This document shows, one piece after another, positions 49,764-56,771 of a DNA stretch of 64,000 nucleotides (its first letter is position 1; each line of letters begins with the position of its first letter). The stretch spans positions 4,540,501 to 4,604,500 of the forward strand of contig NC_019729.1 in assembly GCF_000317475.1 (NCBI RefSeq). Reading direction: 5' to 3'. Under the pieces are notes generated by a model that was not told the DNA's origin, did no database searches, and worked only from the letters and a program-made list of their open reading frames with translations. The DNA is from Oscillatoria nigro-viridis PCC 7112. GTDB lineage: Bacteria > Cyanobacteriota > Cyanobacteriia > Cyanobacteriales > Microcoleaceae. Made by a program: the position numbers and the translations under genes.

Positions 49764-50816
49764 ATGACAGCATCGATCGAAAAACCACTAAATTTGACAT
49801 CCGCAAGTGACACTTCCAACCTGCGCCTCAAAGATATTCTCAAAACCCTGCCGCGGGAAGTATTCGTCAAAAACCCCCGCAAAGCTTGGACAAAAGTAAT
49901 CGTCAACGTTCTTTTAGTTGCTGTCGGTTACTGGGGCATAGCAGTCTCTCCTTGGTTTCTACTACCTCTAATGTGGATTTTCACAGGAACCGGATTAACC
50001 GGTTTTTTTGTGATCGGCCACGACTGCGGGCACCGGTCATTTGCTAACCGCCGCTGGGTAAACGATTTAGTCGGACATATTGCATTTCTGCCGTTAATTT
50101 ATCCGTTTCACGCATGGCGGCACGGACACAATTACCACCACAAGCACACCAATAAAATTGGTGAGGATAATGCTTGGCACCCGATGACAGCAGCAGACTA
50201 CACTGGCGCGCCCAAGGCTTTACAAATAGCTTATAGTTTAATATTCGGTCGGATGTGGTGGATTGGCTCGATCGCCCACTGGGCAAAAGTACACTTTATG
50301 TGGTGGCGCTTCAACGGTAAACAGAAACAAGAACAAGTGCGGTTTTCAGTTTTTGTCGTTTTAATCGGTGCTGCGATCGGATTTCCGCTTTTAATTGCAA
50401 CCACAGGCATTTGGGGATTTGTCAAATTTTGGTTTGTGCCTTGGATGGTTTACCATTTCTGGATGAGCACTTTTACGATCGTCCACCACACAGCACCAGA
50501 CATTTCATTTAAAGAACCCGAAGAATGGAACGAAGCCCAAGCGCAACTATCAGGAACAGTTCACTGCGATTATCCCCGCTGGGTAGAGTTTCTGTGCCAC
50601 GACATTAACGTGCACGTTCCCCACCACCTTTCAACTGCTATTCCCTGGTACAATTTGCGCCTCGCCCACAGCAGCTTAAAGGAAAATTGGCAAGATCATC
50701 TCTACGAAACAGAATTTTCTTGGTCTTTAATGAAGCGGATTGCCGACAACTGTCACTTGTACAATCCCGCTGGTGGCTATCAAACATTGCAGGAATTTAA
50801 CGCTAAAACCAAGTAA
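49764..50816 (+). CDS. desA: Fatty acid desaturase, delta-12 (DesA type)
   Basis: 350 residues, length and opening (SNLRLKDILKTLPREVFVKN) as in cyanobacterial DesA. Three histidine boxes: HDCGH (86-90), HGHNYHH (120-126) and HVPHH (about 288), plus four or so membrane helices. Introduces the delta-12 double bond in membrane-lipid acyl chains using ferredoxin, important for cold acclimation. Delta-12 specificity is by resemblance. A terminator-like hairpin follows. Confidence 0.93.
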   Translation: MTASIEKPLNLTSASDTSNLRLKDILKTLPREVFVKNPRKAWTKVIVNVLLVAVGYWGIAVSPWFLLPLMWIFTGTGLTGFFVIGHDCGHRSFANRRWVNDLVGHIAFLPLIYPFHAWRHGHNYHHKHTNKIGEDNAWHPMTAADYTGAPKALQIAYSLIFGRMWWIGSIAHWAKVHFMWWRFNGKQKQEQVRFSVFVVLIGAAIGFPLLIATTGIWGFVKFWFVPWMVYHFWMSTFTIVHHTAPDISFKEPEEWNEAQAQLSGTVHCDYPRWVEFLCHDINVHVPHHLSTAIPWYNLRLAHSSLKENWQDHLYETEFSWSLMKRIADNCHLYNPAGGYQTLQEFNAKTK

Positions 50817-50838
50817 GTTTTAAACGCGATAAATGCCA

Positions 50839-50874
50839 GAAAAACCCGGTTTGTCAAACAAAACCGGGTTTTTC
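50839..50874 (+). terminator. Terminator-like hairpin after desA
   Basis: GAAAAACCCGGTTT (50839-50852) and AAACCGGGTTTTTC (50861-50874) are perfect arms; the T-run is part of the second arm. It is also a member of the AGAAACCCGGTTTCT-type dispersed palindromes. Confidence 0.7.
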
Positions 50875-50966
50875 GATATTACAATCCGTAGCTTTTGTAA
50901 GGTGCGGAATGCGCGCCCTACTGTGAACATCACAATTCGTACCATTATTAAATCAGTCATTCCCCA

Positions 50967-50997
50967 TCTAAAATCTAAAATCTAAAATCTAAAATCG
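50967..50997 (+). repeat. STRR heptamer array (AAAATCT)
   Basis: About four AAAATCT units ending 1-2 bp before the ATG at 50999. It occupies the ribosome-binding region of the nuclease-ParA gene. Confidence 0.9.
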
Positions 50998-50998
50998 A

Positions 50999-52501
50999 AT
51001 GACTTTCAATCCCAATAACTGTCGTAACGAAAGCGAAGTAGAAAGCAAACTTATTGTCAGCTATCTGCTACCAAAACTAGGCTATACCCCCGACACTTGG
51101 CATCAAGAAGTCACTTTTGGGAATATTCGTCTAGACTTCCTCTCATTTGGCACCCAAGTTATTCCCCTAGTTCTCGATGCAGACTCGCCGATGAGTGTGA
51201 TAATTGAGGCGAAACATCCCAAGGAAAATTTAGACCGCCACGTCAGGAGACTGAAGCGTTACTTAACAAGTTTAAGTATTCGCTACGGATTGATTACCAA
51301 TGCTAAAGAAATTAGAATCTACCAAAGAGTCGCCTCAGAAATTCAGCTAGTATTTAAGTGTGCTGGACAAGACGTGGAAACTAGAATTGATGAAATTCGA
51401 GGTTTAATTGGCAGAGATAATTTAAAATATATAAAAATTCCACATAATCTTCAACTTAAAGAACATCAAAATAATTTGGTAACTCCTGAGTTAATTAGTA
51501 CAGTACCCTTACAAAAAAACAATCCCGTCCCTGCAGAACCGGAGCCAAGTCAAATTTCAGAACCGGAACAAATACCTGAAAATTATCCAGTTAAGCCTCA
51601 AGTTAAATCCGATGTAATCGTTCCCCAAAAAAGGCAAAATACTATGAAAATCATTGCAGTTTACCACAATAAAGGCGGCGTTGGCAAAACTACAACCGTA
51701 GTCAATTTAGCCGCAGCGCTGAGCAAGCAAGGTAAAAGAGTCTTGGTAATCGACTTAGACAGTCAGGCAAATACAACCTTTGCGACTGGTCTAGTAAAAT
51801 TTGAGGATGAAGAACAAGATGATTTGAAAGATTGCAACATTCGTCACGTTTTGGAGTCAGAAGATGGTTACTCGATAGGCGAAGTAGCACGCAAATCAAG
51901 TTTTTGCCATCCCGCAATTGATGTGATTCCTTCCCACATTGATTTAATGCAATATGAAACGGAACTCAATCAACTAGATTACAGCCGCATGATTGTAATT
52001 CACAAACTAGCAGAAGTACAGGATAAATATGATATTGTACTGCTCGATACGCCGCCATCTTTGAATCTTTACGCCAGAATTGCCCTGATTACGGCAGATT
52101 ATTTAATTATTCCTTCGGACTTAAAACCTTTTGCCAATCAAGGACTGATTAATGTCAAGGATTTTATCAAAAAAGTTAACGGATTCAAAAAACAAATCGG
52201 CAAACAGCCGATCGCAATTTTAGGCGTCCTCCCTTGCAAAATCTCAGCTAATGCTAAATTTGTACAGTATAGTTTGCCTAAGCGGAGGGAGACAATTCCC
52301 AAACGCTACGGCCTTGAAATCATGGACAGCGTAATTTACGAGAGAGACGATTTGGCAAAGTGTGCAGAACAATTTCAAATCGTGGGAAATATGGAAATCG
52401 CCGATCCGATTTCAGTGCTGGACTTTAAGCCTGATTCCATCGCCTCCCAAGAATTTGAAATGCTAGCAATCGAAGTTTTGGAAAAAATAGGTAAAAACTA
52501 A
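50999..52501 (+). CDS. Restriction-type PD-(D/E)XK nuclease domain fused to a ParA/Soj ATPase
   Basis: 500 residues. Residues 1-145 match the N-terminal domain of type I restriction R subunits: [16 protein letters not shown] with D46, and SVIIEAKHP with E70/K72, followed by [21 protein letters not shown] Pro/Glu-rich linker (about 170-215) leads to a full ParA domain that starts with its own Met216 ([20 protein letters not shown], Walker A K230), with [16 protein letters not shown] and later helices. The stop overlaps the next gene's ATG (52499-52501), so it is coupled to a ParB-like gene. The fusion is unusual. It could couple DNA sensing or cutting to ParA-type positioning; this is inference. 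An internal start at 51644 could make ParA alone. Confidence 0.85.
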
Positions 52502-53430
52502 TGAAAAAATTATTTCCGTCACTGGTTGCAGTGAAAAGAATTACGTCCGCAGTTCCCCGTTCCAATTTTGCAGAGCCTGAGTTGGAGAAATTAGCGAGAC
52601 TGATTTTAGATTCAGGAGGATTGATTAATCCGATAATTGTCCGCCGCAAAGGTATGGATGCTTACGAGATAGTAGACGGAGATTTTGAATACTACGCGGC
52701 GGCGAGAGCAAAGGAAATAGAACCTCTCAAAGGCGAGACAATCGGAGCATTCATCCTGGAAGAAGAAAATGAAAAAATTCTACTGGAGCAACTTGAAATT
52801 CTCAGAAAAACCGCAATCACTGAGAATTTAGTTGAGAACCCAGAAACAGGGTTTTTCTACGAAAATACTTCGTCGCAGCCCGCAGATTTAATAAAAAACC
52901 CTGTTTCTTTGGTCGAAGTCCATAATTTATGTGAAAATGAAACTCCCCAAGAGCCATCTAGTTTAGAACAGCGACTAACAAATATTGAAGCCCAGTTTGC
53001 AAATCAAATTAATGAACTAAAAGCCGAGTACGCCCGCGAACAAAAAGTTTTAGCCCAGAGTATACAAGAGCTTGAAAACCGACTCTTACAACAAGTACCT
53101 CTGTTAGTTGAAGCTGGGATAGCAAACAGAATTAATGAGTTGAAATCAGAGTCGCTACCCGAAAAACAAGCGGTGGTAGAGAGGATACCCGAAGTTGAAA
53201 ACTTAGCTTCCGAATCAATGTCGCTGTTGGAAGCACTCAATACTTTAGATAAAAATCAACTGTCGGCTAATTTGAAAGATGCTGGCTTGAAGCTTCCAAT
53301 AATCCAAATAATACTCAAAGAGCGAGATGTGCGGCCGTTTGTCTCATTTGCAAATGTGGTGGAACGTGTTAAAGGGTTAGCCGACAAAACAATGATTAAA
53401 ATAATTGATAAGTGGCACAAATACTCATAA
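52501..53430 (+). CDS. ParB-like N-domain coiled-coil protein
   Basis: 309 residues, ATG overlapping the upstream stop. Residues about 10-90 look like a ParB/sulfiredoxin N-terminal domain (ELEKLARLILDSGGLINPII, then VRRKGMDAYEIVDGDFEYYA; the usual GERR motif is replaced by GDFEYYAA). Then a variable part with an in-frame palindromic repeat (about 114-136), a coiled coil (about 155-215) and a helical C-terminus resembling a helix-hairpin-helix. No ParB HTH was recognised. Probable partner of the ParA fusion. Confidence 0.7.
   Translation: MKKLFPSLVAVKRITSAVPRSNFAEPELEKLARLILDSGGLINPIIVRRKGMDAYEIVDGDFEYYAAARAKEIEPLKGETIGAFILEEENEKILLEQLEILRKTAITENLVENPETGFFYENTSSQPADLIKNPVSLVEVHNLCENETPQEPSSLEQRLTNIEAQFANQINELKAEYAREQKVLAQSIQELENRLLQQVPLLVEAGIANRINELKSESLPEKQAVVERIPEVENLASESMSLLEALNTLDKNQLSANLKDAGLKLPIIQIILKERDVRPFVSFANVVERVKGLADKTMIKIIDKWHKYS
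52842..52908. repeat. Palindromic repeat inserted in the ParB-like gene
   Basis: AGAAACAGGGTTTTT (52842-52856) and AAAAACCCTGTTTCT (52894-52908) are perfect 15-bp arms. The frame is kept, adding about 23 residues (PETGFFYENTS...IKNPVS). Same family as the AGAAACCCGGTTTCT palindromes. Confidence 0.8.
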
Positions 53431-53474
53431 CTCGCAATTCCTGTCGCCACTGGCAACTTTGACTCAGTGAGTCT

Positions 53475-53711
53475 CTACTCCAAAATAAGTAAAGATGAGT
53501 AAAGCAGTGGATCGTTGGTGTCCCACAGCCAGTTAAACTCATCACAGTCGCTTTTTTTAGGAATTGCAGTAACTTTTGCCGTAGCACGGGCTTCCGGCCC
53601 GACGCCATCGCCCGGGCTGTCACCGCACAGCCAGCCGCACAGGTACAGCAGCAACGCGATATCTCCCCCAGATAACCGAGTTCGATCGCAGACTTGGAAG
53701 ACTGAGGCCAA
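53475..53711 (-). CDS. Possible small hypothetical protein
   Basis: 78 residues on the minus strand inside an otherwise empty 450-bp gap. The composition is protein-like (GDGVGPEARATAKVTAIPKK, then SDCDEFNWLWDTNDPLLYSS). No motif, no clear Shine-Dalgarno. It could be a real small gene or a remnant. Confidence 0.3.
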   Translation of the reverse strand: MASVFQVCDRTRLSGGDIALLLYLCGWLCGDSPGDGVGPEARATAKVTAIPKKSDCDEFNWLWDTNDPLLYSSLLILE

Positions 53712-53880
53712 GAAGCCCTTTAACTTACCACAGTCTGGGTAAGGTGTTTGTCTCGCACCTTACAATACAATTAGAGTTCTTGGGTTAGTCCTGCATCCGT
53801 TAAAACGCAGGCTGTAAAGTGCAAACATACATAAATACCCAAACACCAGATTTTAATGACAAAAGGGGACTTGTAACAAG

Positions 53881-54969
53881 ATGGATCGATCGTCCGATCA
53901 AAACCGAATAGTTGAATATTTGCGGATTAAGCCCATTAGTCACAGTCAGATTTACACTTCCCAAATTGCAGTACCAGAGCCTCAGCGGGGCGAAATTCCC
54001 CGCGAACGCCGCGAAGATATCAGGAGAAGTCTGATCGAGCAAGGCAGCAACTTGATTCCATTAATTGTACGTCGCACTGAAGCTTACAGCAACGAAGAAG
54101 AATATGAAGTTGTCTGCGGCTCAGATTGGTGTATTGTTGCTAAAGAACTCGGCATCGAGCAAATGTGGGCGTGGGTATTTGAAATGACCGACGAGGAGGT
54201 AGCTGTTGCTCAAGCAGAAATGGAACATTTAGCTTCGCAACCGACTCATAAAACAGCACAAATTGAGACTCTACTGCAACAATTTGAGCTATCATTTCAA
54301 AAAAAGGTAGATAGTCTAACAAAACAAATAGAACAATCAGTTAAAAAAAATGAAGATCTGCTAAAAAAGCACGTAAAAGCTCTAACTGAGCAGAACTTTG
54401 AGCGCAACCAAATAGAACAGATTAAGCATTTGCTGGAACAAGTGGAAAAAGCATTTCAGGAAAAGGTAGATAAAATGGCGAAAAAAATTGAACAATCGAG
54501 CAGCAACCGTCCGCCGACATCTGCTGTTATTTCTGAGGTGAATCTTGAAGCCGCTTTGAGACAGTTGGATGAACTGGAAAAGTTGCTGTCAAGAAAACTA
54601 GAACGCACAGTCCAAACAATTAATCTGTTTGTTTCCGACGCGATTGAAGACGTAGAAAATGACCTGAAAAATCAAATTGAAACGCTCCGTCGCCAACTCG
54701 GAGGCGCAGCGACGCACTCAGAAATACAGCCCGAGGCACAACCTAAAAGGCCGTCAAAAACGCAGCCCAAGAAGCAGTCGAAACCACAGCAGAAACCTCA
54801 GCTACCGCAGTTGCAGTTGGAGTTGCCGTTTCCGTCCCCAGAGGCAGACTACGAAAGTCTCTCGCTGAGACGGTTGAAGGCGATCGGCAAAGACAGGAAA
54901 GTCCGGGGCTACGCGCGCATGAAACGGCCGGAAATTATCGTGGCTCTCAGACAAACTGACGACCAATAA
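53881..54969 (+). CDS. ParB-like N-domain coiled-coil protein with Rho_N/SAP-like C-terminus
   Basis: 362 residues. Residues about 15-95 resemble a ParB N-domain (GEIPRERREDIRRSLIEQGS, then NLIPLIVRR and VVCGSDWCIVAKELG). Then long coiled coils (about 115-210 and 230-280), a Lys/Pro/Gln-rich linker (about 285-315) and a C-terminal helix pair LSLRRLKAIGKDRKVRGYAR, then MKRPEIIVAL, like Rho_N or SAP DNA-binding motifs. It follows the previous ParB-like gene by 450 bp, on the same strand. Two ParB-like partners for one ParA is uncommon. DNA tethering is a plausible role. Confidence 0.65.
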   Translation: MDRSSDQNRIVEYLRIKPISHSQIYTSQIAVPEPQRGEIPRERREDIRRSLIEQGSNLIPLIVRRTEAYSNEEEYEVVCGSDWCIVAKELGIEQMWAWVFEMTDEEVAVAQAEMEHLASQPTHKTAQIETLLQQFELSFQKKVDSLTKQIEQSVKKNEDLLKKHVKALTEQNFERNQIEQIKHLLEQVEKAFQEKVDKMAKKIEQSSSNRPPTSAVISEVNLEAALRQLDELEKLLSRKLERTVQTINLFVSDAIEDVENDLKNQIETLRRQLGGAATHSEIQPEAQPKRPSKTQPKKQSKPQQKPQLPQLQLELPFPSPEADYESLSLRRLKAIGKDRKVRGYARMKRPEIIVALRQTDDQ

Positions 54970-55258
54970 AACGATAATTGCTAATAGTTAAATGCGTTAA
55001 TCTGTGTTTATCTGCCCTCATCTGCGGTGAAAAAAAGAGAATTTCAGCAAGCGCAGATGAGAAGGGATTGACGCAGATTCACGCAGATGAAGATCGGAGA
55101 TATCTGAATAATTCCGATACTAACAGATTTCATATTGTTCGGTATTCGATCGCGTGTTTCCGCACAAAGCGCGATCGGGCTTTCAGAATAGTCCTCGGCA
55201 GAGATATGAAAAGCTTGCTAAAATAGACACACAACCTCTTACTCCTCACCCAGCAGCC

Positions 55259-55990
55259 ATGTCCGCAACCGCAGAATTAGCTACTACCCAAGAGATACTA
55301 GAACAAGAGATACCAGAACAAGAGATACCGGAAAATGTTATTTTTCCGCCCGGCGATTTATACAGTGACGAACCTCCCGTGGAAACAGAACTGCATCTCC
55401 GACAAATAATCCTACTCCTCAACTGTCTAGAATGGCTGTGGCGAGATAGAAACAATTTCTATGCTGCTGGGAACCTCACCATTTATTACAGTCCCAAGCA
55501 ACTCAAATCGAAAGACTTCCGAGGCCCAGACTTTTTTGTTGTACTCGGAACAGAACGAAAAACTCGGAAAAGCTGGGTAGTTTGGGATGAAGAGGGAAAG
55601 TACCCCAATATTATCGTAGAAATCCTGTCTCCCAAAACAGCGGATACAGACAAAAACTTTAAGAAACAACTCTATCAAGATACTTTTCGCACTCACGACT
55701 ACTTTTGGTTTGACCCAGAAACTTTAGAATTAGCTGGGTTTCATTTAGTTGACGGGGAATATGAAGCAATCGCACCCAACGAATTCGGCCATCTGCGGAG
55801 TCAGCAGCTCGATTTGAGTCTCGGAATTTGTGGCGGAAAATTGCGTTTCTTTACAGCAGAAGGAGAGCTTGTCCCTACTCCTGAAGAGGTTGCAGAATGC
55901 GAGACTCAACGGGCAGAGCAAGAGGCTCAACGAGCCGATCGCCTGGCCGCGAAATTGCGAGAATTAAATATTGACCCCGATACAATTTAG
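55259..55990 (+). CDS. Uma2 family (DUF820) endonuclease-like protein, long type
   Basis: 243 residues from ATG 55259. After a Glu-rich repeat (ILEQEIPEQEIPEN) comes the Uma2 core with GPDFFVVLGTERKTRKSWVV (the PD motif) and YPNIIVEILSPKTADTDK (E-x-x motif), then DTFRTHDYFWFDPETLELAG. The tail is an acidic coil (AECETQRAEQEAQRADRLAA). Presumed nuclease; belongs to the larger Uma2 subgroup. Confidence 0.85.
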   Translation: MSATAELATTQEILEQEIPEQEIPENVIFPPGDLYSDEPPVETELHLRQIILLLNCLEWLWRDRNNFYAAGNLTIYYSPKQLKSKDFRGPDFFVVLGTERKTRKSWVVWDEEGKYPNIIVEILSPKTADTDKNFKKQLYQDTFRTHDYFWFDPETLELAGFHLVDGEYEAIAPNEFGHLRSQQLDLSLGICGGKLRFFTAEGELVPTPEEVAECETQRAEQEAQRADRLAAKLRELNIDPDTI

Positions 55991-56031: not shown

Positions 56032-56367
56032 TTAGGCGATCGCATATCCCGTATGCTGCCGAACGTGATACGGATGAAACCCTAAAACTATCTTGTCTTT
56101 AGGCACTCCTAATTCTACAAGTTCTGCGGTAATTCCCGTTTCTATACCATCTTGTTGAATCCAGATTTTGCCGTCGATAATTTCCACATGGACGATACAC
56201 CCGTGAATTCTTTGAGGCCCTTGCCAGCCTTCGTGCATCAATAAAAAATTGTTTTGTTCGCTATCAACAATAACGCTGTTTTTAACTTGTCCGTAACAGT
56301 TAGGAATCCTGGCATAACTATCTAAAACAGTGCGAACAATTTGGCGATATTCATCTAGTCTATCCAT
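56032..56367 (-). CDS. xisI: XisI-like protein
   Basis: 111 residues: MDRLDEYRQIVRTVLDSYAR, then LLMHEGWQGPQRIHGCIVHV and DKIVLGFHPYHVRQHTGYAI are XisI signatures. First described as an excision-controlling factor of the fdxN element in Nostoc; XisHI pairs are abundant in cyanobacteria without any such element, and a toxin-antitoxin-like role has been proposed. The start overlaps the xisH stop region by 13 bp. Confidence 0.9.
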   Translation of the reverse strand: MDRLDEYRQIVRTVLDSYARIPNCYGQVKNSVIVDSEQNNFLLMHEGWQGPQRIHGCIVHVEIIDGKIWIQQDGIETGITAELVELGVPKDKIVLGFHPYHVRQHTGYAIA

Positions 56368-56771
56368 CTGATAATTATCTCCCTTGATGAATCAAAAACA
56401 ATTAGTTTTAGTCTTTTTTTTCGTAACAAAAGTTGCCCCAGTGGCTCCGAGAAAATATCTAGATAAACTTCTTCCCGAACAGCTAGATAGATATTACGTT
56501 CTGGTTCCGAAAGCTCTAGAATATCTTCATAGACAATATACTGTCCAACAGCTTCTTCTAAGTCATGAACGGGTGAAATACTTAAAAAACTTTTTACTTC
56601 TACAGCAATTTTGCGACCTTGCTTTTCGGCAGCCAGTATTTTTTCTGCACCCAAATCGACGAAGAGTGAACGATCGCCAATTTCTAGGGTTAGCGGATCG
56701 TTTGTTATCGTCCACCCGTCTTTTTCTAGAGCTGTTCTGACAGTATTGTGGTAGATGTCTTTTGCTGGCAT
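56355..56771 (-). CDS. xisH: XisH-like protein (PD-(D/E)XK nuclease fold)
   Basis: 138 residues: MPAKDIYHNTVRTALEKDGW, then VDLGAEKILAAEKQGRKIAV and EVKSFLSISPVHDLEEAVGQ. The D...ExK residues (VDLGAE, AVEVKSF) fit an endonuclease-like fold. Pairs with XisI. No excision target (attachment site or interrupted gene) is visible nearby. Confidence 0.9.
   Translation of the reverse strand: MPAKDIYHNTVRTALEKDGWTITNDPLTLEIGDRSLFVDLGAEKILAAEKQGRKIAVEVKSFLSISPVHDLEEAVGQYIVYEDILELSEPERNIYLAVREEVYLDIFSEPLGQLLLRKKRLKLIVFDSSREIIIRWID

Follow-up and report, generated by a model that had tools for sequence, protein, structure and literature searches.

ParA-ParB pairs are known as movers of DNA and cargo, and type Ia ParA proteins carry a regulatory helix-turn-helix (HTH) at the N-terminal position that is occupied by a nuclease domain in the protein described below. 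A plasmid-directed nuclease defence is reportedly provided by MksBEFG, in which an ATPase-controlled nuclease acts on plasmids; its proteins are said to be of the SMC type and unrelated to those of the present cassette. Among ParB-fold proteins, the available text of PMC12704722 names a DUF3850 fusion as the sole type consistently found next to parA. Here we describe a cassette from Oscillatoria nigro-viridis PCC 7112, within a 64,000-nucleotide stretch of DNA (the window, whose positions serve as coordinates), in which a nuclease-ParA fusion is followed by a ParB-like partner. The fusion protein, NucParA, is encoded by one open reading frame (ORF) of 500 aa at 50999-52501 on the forward strand. 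The first base of the partner gene, PB2 (52501-53430, +), is also the final base of the NucParA gene, giving the one-base overlap described in a first-pass annotation of this DNA. A nuclease-ParA fusion was not found in the literature searched, which included the available portions of PMC12839542 and PMC13190303 and had most subscription papers and preprints outside its scope. The parts of the two genes are as follows.

50999-51433, +: PD-(D/E)XK (HsdR_N-like) nuclease domain of NucParA, residues 1-145, with E11, D46, E70, K72 and Y88 (HSDR_N_2 match, residue conservation, and the AlphaFold2 predicted local distance difference test, pLDDT)
51434-51634, +: disordered linker of NucParA, residues 146-212 (low pLDDT; ratio of non-synonymous to synonymous substitution rates, dN/dS, of 0.54)
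51638-52498, +: ParA ATPase domain, residues 214-500, with the deviant Walker A KGGVGKTT at 225-232
52501-52830, +: PB2 N-terminal ParB/sulfiredoxin (Srx)-fold domain, residues 1-110 (ParB_N match; Foldseek matches to ParB and Noc)
52960-53151, +: PB2 long helix, a probable coiled coil, residues 154-217 (AlphaFold2 helix)
53224-53424, +: PB2 helix-hairpin-helix (HhH)-like tail, residues 242-308 (sub-cut-off DUF655 and HHH_6 matches; helical module in the model)

The joining of the two enzyme domains is real, as the first-pass annotation had it: HSDR_N_2 (26.6 bits against a cut-off of 25, residues 18-113) and AAA_31/ParA (189.8 bits, residues 216-395) are matched within one ORF, and 125 distinct ORFs in the loci that we scanned hold both. 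The AlphaFold2 model comprises two mostly confident domains, at residues 1-145 (with a weak loop at about 51-70) and 215-500, and a disordered linker at 146-211 where pLDDT is below 50 over most of the length. Within the nuclease domain, pLDDT is 88-97 per 10-residue block, except for blocks 51-60 (58) and 61-70 (73). D46 lies on a strand at 43-50, E70 on a second strand at 66-71, and K72 directly after the second strand, as in PD-(D/E)XK folds, so that the core fold with its D..(D/E)xK motif is found by Pfam match, modelled strands and residues alike. Searching PDB sequences with a profile of the nuclease domain gave no match; the fold search used the whole NucParA model, and among the PDB matches listed all came from the ParA part. 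The ParA part is of Soj type, with the deviant Walker A (KGGxGKT), the catalytic Asp, the Walker B and the fold. NucParA resembles Soj and the ParABS systems in this fold, in the Walker A and other checked ATPase residues, and in the order of a parA followed by a parB-like gene, but differs in its N-terminal nuclease domain. Through the HSDR_N_2 family, that domain is akin to those of type I and type IIG restriction enzymes, and a tblastn search with it matched, over at most 71% of its length, HsdR_N-annotated and N-6 methylase proteins (10 plasmid records). Unlike the HsdR_N systems, the cassette has its domain fused to ParA, and the operon contains no helicase, methylase or specificity subunit.

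This architecture is widespread and conserved. A search with the nuclease domain over 292 genomes drawn across the cyanobacterial phylum gave matches in 63 at E≤1e-6 and strong matches (E≤2e-16) in 54, in frames of fusion length (449-532 aa) for 49 and of 212-299 aa for five, the fit to a fusion being judged from frame size. Among 54 family members compared with Pfam, 52 match HSDR_N_2 (E≤1e-3). We distinguish subfamilies A to D, and subfamily C is undercounted in this search, as a genome with a C-type fusion (L216 in G253) matched at only 6.5e-9. A scan of named genomes gave 245 relatives, of which 80 were kept, cyanobacterial by record title. In the 158 loci scanned (L039-L078 and L109-L226, some genomes twice), both domains share one stop-to-stop frame in 146; these yield the 125 distinct ORFs, 115 of them of at least 430 aa and hereafter called intact. 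At E≤1e-3, 443 proteins match the nuclease domain of subfamily C; of the 120 listed, those with names are cyanobacterial. Within Microcoleus, the cassette is present in 27 of 29 genomes. Copies with broken frames were inspected at 11 loci; a programmed frameshift in the ParA part was considered and rejected, as the breaks vary in both position and kind.

The putative catalytic residues are retained throughout this set. E70, K72 and Y88 are present in all 115 intact members, E11 in 113 and D46 in 114, the D46 exception (L048) having a frame break ahead of that position. The D46/E70/K72 motif, whose absence across homologues had been named in the first-pass annotation as grounds for abandoning its proposal, is therefore kept in all 114 members that cover the three positions. 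By eye, D..ExK is visible in subfamily C, while in subfamily D the aligned catalytic Asp position is shifted and the identity of the Asp is uncertain. Six checked ParA residues are invariant in the 115 members. The ParA part's own Met, noted in the first-pass annotation, is usual in Microcoleus but is Val in several relatives, and so is not a family feature. In pairwise comparisons among 18 Microcoleus loci, the median dN/dS is 0.14 in the nuclease domain, 0.11 in the ParA domain and 0.54 in the linker, a clear sign at the sequence level of purifying selection on both enzyme domains. As D46, E70 and K72 are invariant even though subfamily B shares just 24-28% identity with the window protein, and dN/dS is 0.14, catalysis seems to be selected and not the fold alone, and we consider the nuclease very probably functional. 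More than 100 distinct cyanobacterial ParA proteins (125) thus appear to carry a working nuclease domain.

PB2 belongs to a family of partners that accompanies the fusion almost without exception. We defined the partner as the nearest ORF downstream of NucParA that has 120 aa or more and lies no further than 600 nt away. By this definition 113 of the 115 intact loci have a partner, the exceptions being L145, where the locus ends, and L197, which has no such ORF. Each of the 113 is matched by one of three models built on partner sequences (E≤0.01), and in 74 the partner start is offset by -1 or -4 from the NucParA stop. This bears out the expected co-occurrence of the second gene with the fusion, and its description as having a ParB-like N-domain but no HTH is also upheld: PB2 matches ParB_N at 33.3 bits (cut-off 26.3) and gives no match to HTH_ParB. 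Its N-domain has the ParB/Srx fold by Foldseek (ParB 6sdk, 2e-5; Noc 7ol9, 2e-5), as in ParB, Noc, PadC and KorB (ParB-CTPase/sulfiredoxin fold), but in place of an HTH the partners have a long helix and one of several tails. ParB_N matches 38 of the 39 subfamily-A partners examined and gives weak matches to the three subfamily-B partners tested (E 0.017-0.1). Assigned with models built in this analysis, the 113 tails are HhH-like in 79, Rho_N/SAP-like in 19, a third module without a Pfam name in nine, and unassigned in six. The three modules are basic, with a median charge of +5 to +7 over the C-terminal 60 residues, and they swap: a quick tree requires 13 changes, a figure that is approximate because several of its branches are long. 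The partner's DNA-binding end would thus be exchanged in the manner of a specificity module. In PB2, median dN/dS rises from 0.18 in the N-domain to 0.30 in the middle and 0.52 in the tail, which makes the tail the region under the weakest constraint. Further differences from canonical ParABS emerged from simple pattern searches, in which the ParA-binding motif LG[RK]GL (first 60 residues) and the GxRRxxA and ENxQR boxes, the canonical CTPase boxes among them, were found in none of the 113 partners, and QPR in two. According to the available text of PMC12704722, nucleotide binding by ParB-fold proteins is not predictable from sequence. No parS-like array was found within 50600-55300, in line with the first-pass annotation; four 7-bp ATCTAAA repeats lie upstream of NucParA at 50966-50993.

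At fixed chromosomal sites, whole versions of the cassette replace one another. All 20 of the Microcoleus loci fetched have the order thrC-orf93-desaturase-cassette. At one and the same site, one of the loci L136 (Planktothrix rubescens) and L052, both from genomes of group code g3, has a subfamily-A cassette and the other a subfamily-B cassette: the two are 96% identical in thrC and 89% in the desaturase, compared with 32% in NucParA and 28% in the partner. Similarly, L166 and L156 are 97-98% identical in their flanks, 72% in NucParA and 35% in the partner. One site, shared by 18 loci of Nostoc and its close relatives, consists of a kinase gene (C8), a zinc-ribbon gene (C7), the cassette and a glycosyltransferase-like gene (C2), for which the names 'nblS' (C8) and 'GT2' (C2) were given by eye. 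Median identities over 153 pairs are 95% for C8, 90% for C7, 71% for NucParA, 41% for the partner and 92% for C2. Among the 30 best-scoring zinc-ribbon loci of Nostocaceae, NucParA lies within 1.5 kb in three and not in the other 27, which indicates that the site is probably often empty. A separate ParA of about 300 aa is encoded on the other strand, up to 6 kb upstream of NucParA, at 23 of 125 loci (e.g. L174, L166 and L191), and in several of these its neighbour is an ileS-like gene.

When plasmids and phages were searched with only the window protein, the family seemed restricted to chromosomes, an idea that was rejected after searches with subfamilies C and D. These occur on plasmids of Nostoc sp. 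UHCC 0870 (35.7, 55 and 30.7 kb), on Pseudanabaena ABRG53g (12.6 kb), on P. galeata pPg_01 (225 kb, gene content seen in part) and on L. boryana pLBA (77.8 kb, two strains). Subfamily D was found only on plasmids, the chromosome sets not having been searched with it; at 80% coverage, subfamily B gave no plasmid record and subfamily D no phage record. In gene tables that are incomplete, ABRG53g and pLBA have no other annotated ParA or ParM. By contrast, the 35.7-kb and 55-kb Nostoc plasmids also carry ParM, with a further segregation-type ATPase on the former, and the 30.7-kb plasmid also carries a ParA-ParB pair. Directly after the partner gene of ABRG53g lies an array of 8-bp TGTAACAG-like repeats (L263 411-713), which may be a centromere or replication iterons. 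As pLBA (L268/L270) encodes a terminase, it may be a phage-plasmid. The first-pass view that plasmid partition is not the obvious role is weakened by these distant subfamilies.

A link to phages was seen on one 55.8-kb viral contig, which encodes a lone 101-aa PB2-type N-domain that is 50% identical to PB2 and matches ParB_N at 30 bits. The gene sits after a thyX-like gene (by eye), and is flanked by two 146-nt units that are 98% identical.

L261 4998-5303 / L262 5852-7048: stand-alone PB2-type N-domain gene between the 146-nt units, then a small coiled-coil-like ORF

By analogy, the lone N-domain fits what a decoy would look like, and we take it as a lead. Viral scans with the nuclease domain, the C and D nuclease domains and PB3-type proteins (see below) gave no relative. 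Proteins of about 100 aa with a ParB fold occur in phages generally, according to the available text of PMC12704722, but the one on this contig is close to PB2. As a further lead, PDB 9k3a chain B, a 1717-aa chain named 'Tail protein', matches the PB2 N-domain profile at residues 1343-1405 (E 1e-8); no paper bearing this entry code was found.

What the cassette does can be read in several ways. Tentatively, and at somewhat less than an even chance, we favour the reading that a par-type operon has been remade as an ATP-gated nuclease and is kept as a device in conflict between replicons. NucParA would be a ParA of Soj type to which a PD-(D/E)XK domain is flexibly tethered, and PB2 an adaptor that joins the ParB/Srx fold to a long helix and a basic HhH-like tail. 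With ATP, NucParA would dimerise on DNA so that two nuclease domains meet, and the partner, bound to DNA through its tail, would touch the ParA part and set the lifetime of the nuclease-competent state. DNA with the wrong balance would be cut, whether it came in with a plasmid or a phage or belonged to a competing copy of the element; chromosomal copies (A and B) would defend or compete, and plasmid copies (C and D) would serve their element. This is supported by the invariant D/E/K and ParA residues, the low dN/dS of the nuclease domain, the adjacent partner, the patchy spread (54 of 292 genomes), the broken copies, the alternating cassettes, the swapping tails and the viral N-domain, and the replacement of whole divergent versions at fixed sites points to DNA-element conflict over routine chromosome handling. 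A fixed site with alternative alleles, probable empty sites and decay resembles restriction and other conflict loci. A defence system in which ParA switching controls a nuclease, as raised in the first-pass annotation, is possible, with indirect evidence from the cassette exchange and the one phage-borne partner domain. We think it unlikely that the cassette is a previously undescribed defence specifically against plasmids or phages, in which the ATP switching of ParA is sensed by an exchangeable ParB-fold protein and permits the tethered nuclease to act. Self and non-self would then be distinguished through the dynamics of ParA and its partner, neither sequence nor methylation being the criterion, and phages would answer with a lone N-domain as a decoy. 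Several observations weigh against the replicon-conflict reading. The median dN/dS exceeds 1 in none of the regions, and diversifying selection is thus not demonstrated; the neighbours are mostly housekeeping or, by eye, glycosyltransferase-like genes with no evident defence island; and PADLOC 2023 models gave no full-length match to NucParA, the best of the partial matches being PDC-M28B at residues 210-254 of the ParA part. With 27 of 29 genomes and one site in all loci fetched, Microcoleus looks like a case of vertical inheritance, some of the broken copies may be assembly errors, and the exchange at fixed sites could reflect an incompatibility-type specificity. The viral N-domain is a single case: in a known-phage collection, four weak ParB-like matches covered half of the domain, and the viral gene itself had no match. 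Finally, the plasmid copies fit partition equally well.

Partition proper is indeed a serious rival, which we rate as doubtful but still conceivable. NucParA would move a DNA cargo over the nucleoid, the partner would bind the cargo by its tail and trigger ATP hydrolysis, and the N-domain would be an accessory (e.g. for dimer or catenane processing, or DNA binding). Its strongest evidence, and a further point against a conflict device, is ABRG53g, where the sole annotated ParA is that of the cassette and the 8-bp array lies just beyond the partner gene. It is harder to square with the absence of the three sequence boxes from all partners, of an HTH from PB2 and of a parS-like array from the window locus, with distances from dnaA of 2.89, 2.0 and 0.24 Mb in three chromosomes, or with the three Nostoc plasmids on which the cassette coexists with distinct genes for ParM and/or ParA or ParAB, and it leaves unexplained both the retention of D/E/K and the alternation of cassettes at one site. 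The N-domain could also be a nuclease fold serving only DNA binding or operon autoregulation, as suggested by its occupying the position of the type Ia regulatory HTH, by the modest Pfam match and by the lack of PDB sequence matches; loss of D46, E70 and K72 would then be expected, whereas they are kept across A and B and D..ExK is visible in C, which makes this quite improbable. Least credible, to our minds scarcely so, is a housekeeping role in chromosome segregation, replacing a missing chromosomal ParABS. In this genome, HTH_ParB (PF17762) matches lie only on contigs C5 (300 kb) and C6 (74 kb), presumably plasmids, with none on contig C1, and most Microcoleus genomes do keep the cassette; but 238 of the 292 genomes of the phylum have no strong match, alternative and broken versions occupy one site, and the distance from dnaA is variable. 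Should ParA dimerisation gate the nuclease, as the replicon-conflict reading proposes, this would be a new control of DNA cutting and would connect partition systems with conflict between elements. D46, E70, K72 and K230 are clear targets for mutation, and natural allele pairs exist at identical sites.

Downstream of PB2 lies a third gene on the same strand, PB3, with the following parts.

53881-54234, +: N-terminal ParB_N-like domain, of the subfamily-B partner type (ParB_N 21.5 bits, below the cut-off of 26.3; aligns with B partners)
54235-54846, +: coiled-coil-like and basic linker region (weak matches to SMC and, by profile, designed coiled coils; composition only)
54847-54954, +: Rho_N/SAP-like tail, residues 323-358 (Rho_N 25.2 bits, cut-off 24.9)

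The first-pass annotation saw here a repeat of the PB2 design, of which the Rho_N tail scores just above its cut-off while the ParB_N match falls short. Its three-gene system did not survive, and a three-gene operon was rejected as the unit, because PB3 is no constant companion. Of 29 Microcoleus genomes, 25 contain it, two of these with stop codons within the matched region, and so do six of 30 other relatives; at 10 subfamily-A loci outside Microcoleus (Nostoc loci not covered), the fetched stretch contains PB3 in two, 6-9 kb away and in one case broken. By alignment, the PB3-type N-domain is instead that of the adjacent partner of subfamily B, and PB3 is likely left over from, or captured from, a B cassette.

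A block of about 95 nt between PB2 and PB3 (within 53431-53880) is highly conserved in 16 aligned Microcoleus loci and has no Rfam match; no non-coding RNA was found near the locus. A mobile island or prophage in the window was considered and is unsupported, the flanking thrC, orf93 and desaturase genes being constant in the Microcoleus loci fetched. XisI and XisH genes adjoin the locus (56032-56771, -) with strong Pfam matches, as they do beside several Microcoleus loci. Between these and PB3 lies a putative nuclease gene of the Uma2 family (55154-55990), and relatives have one to three copies, or a remnant, in the same place.

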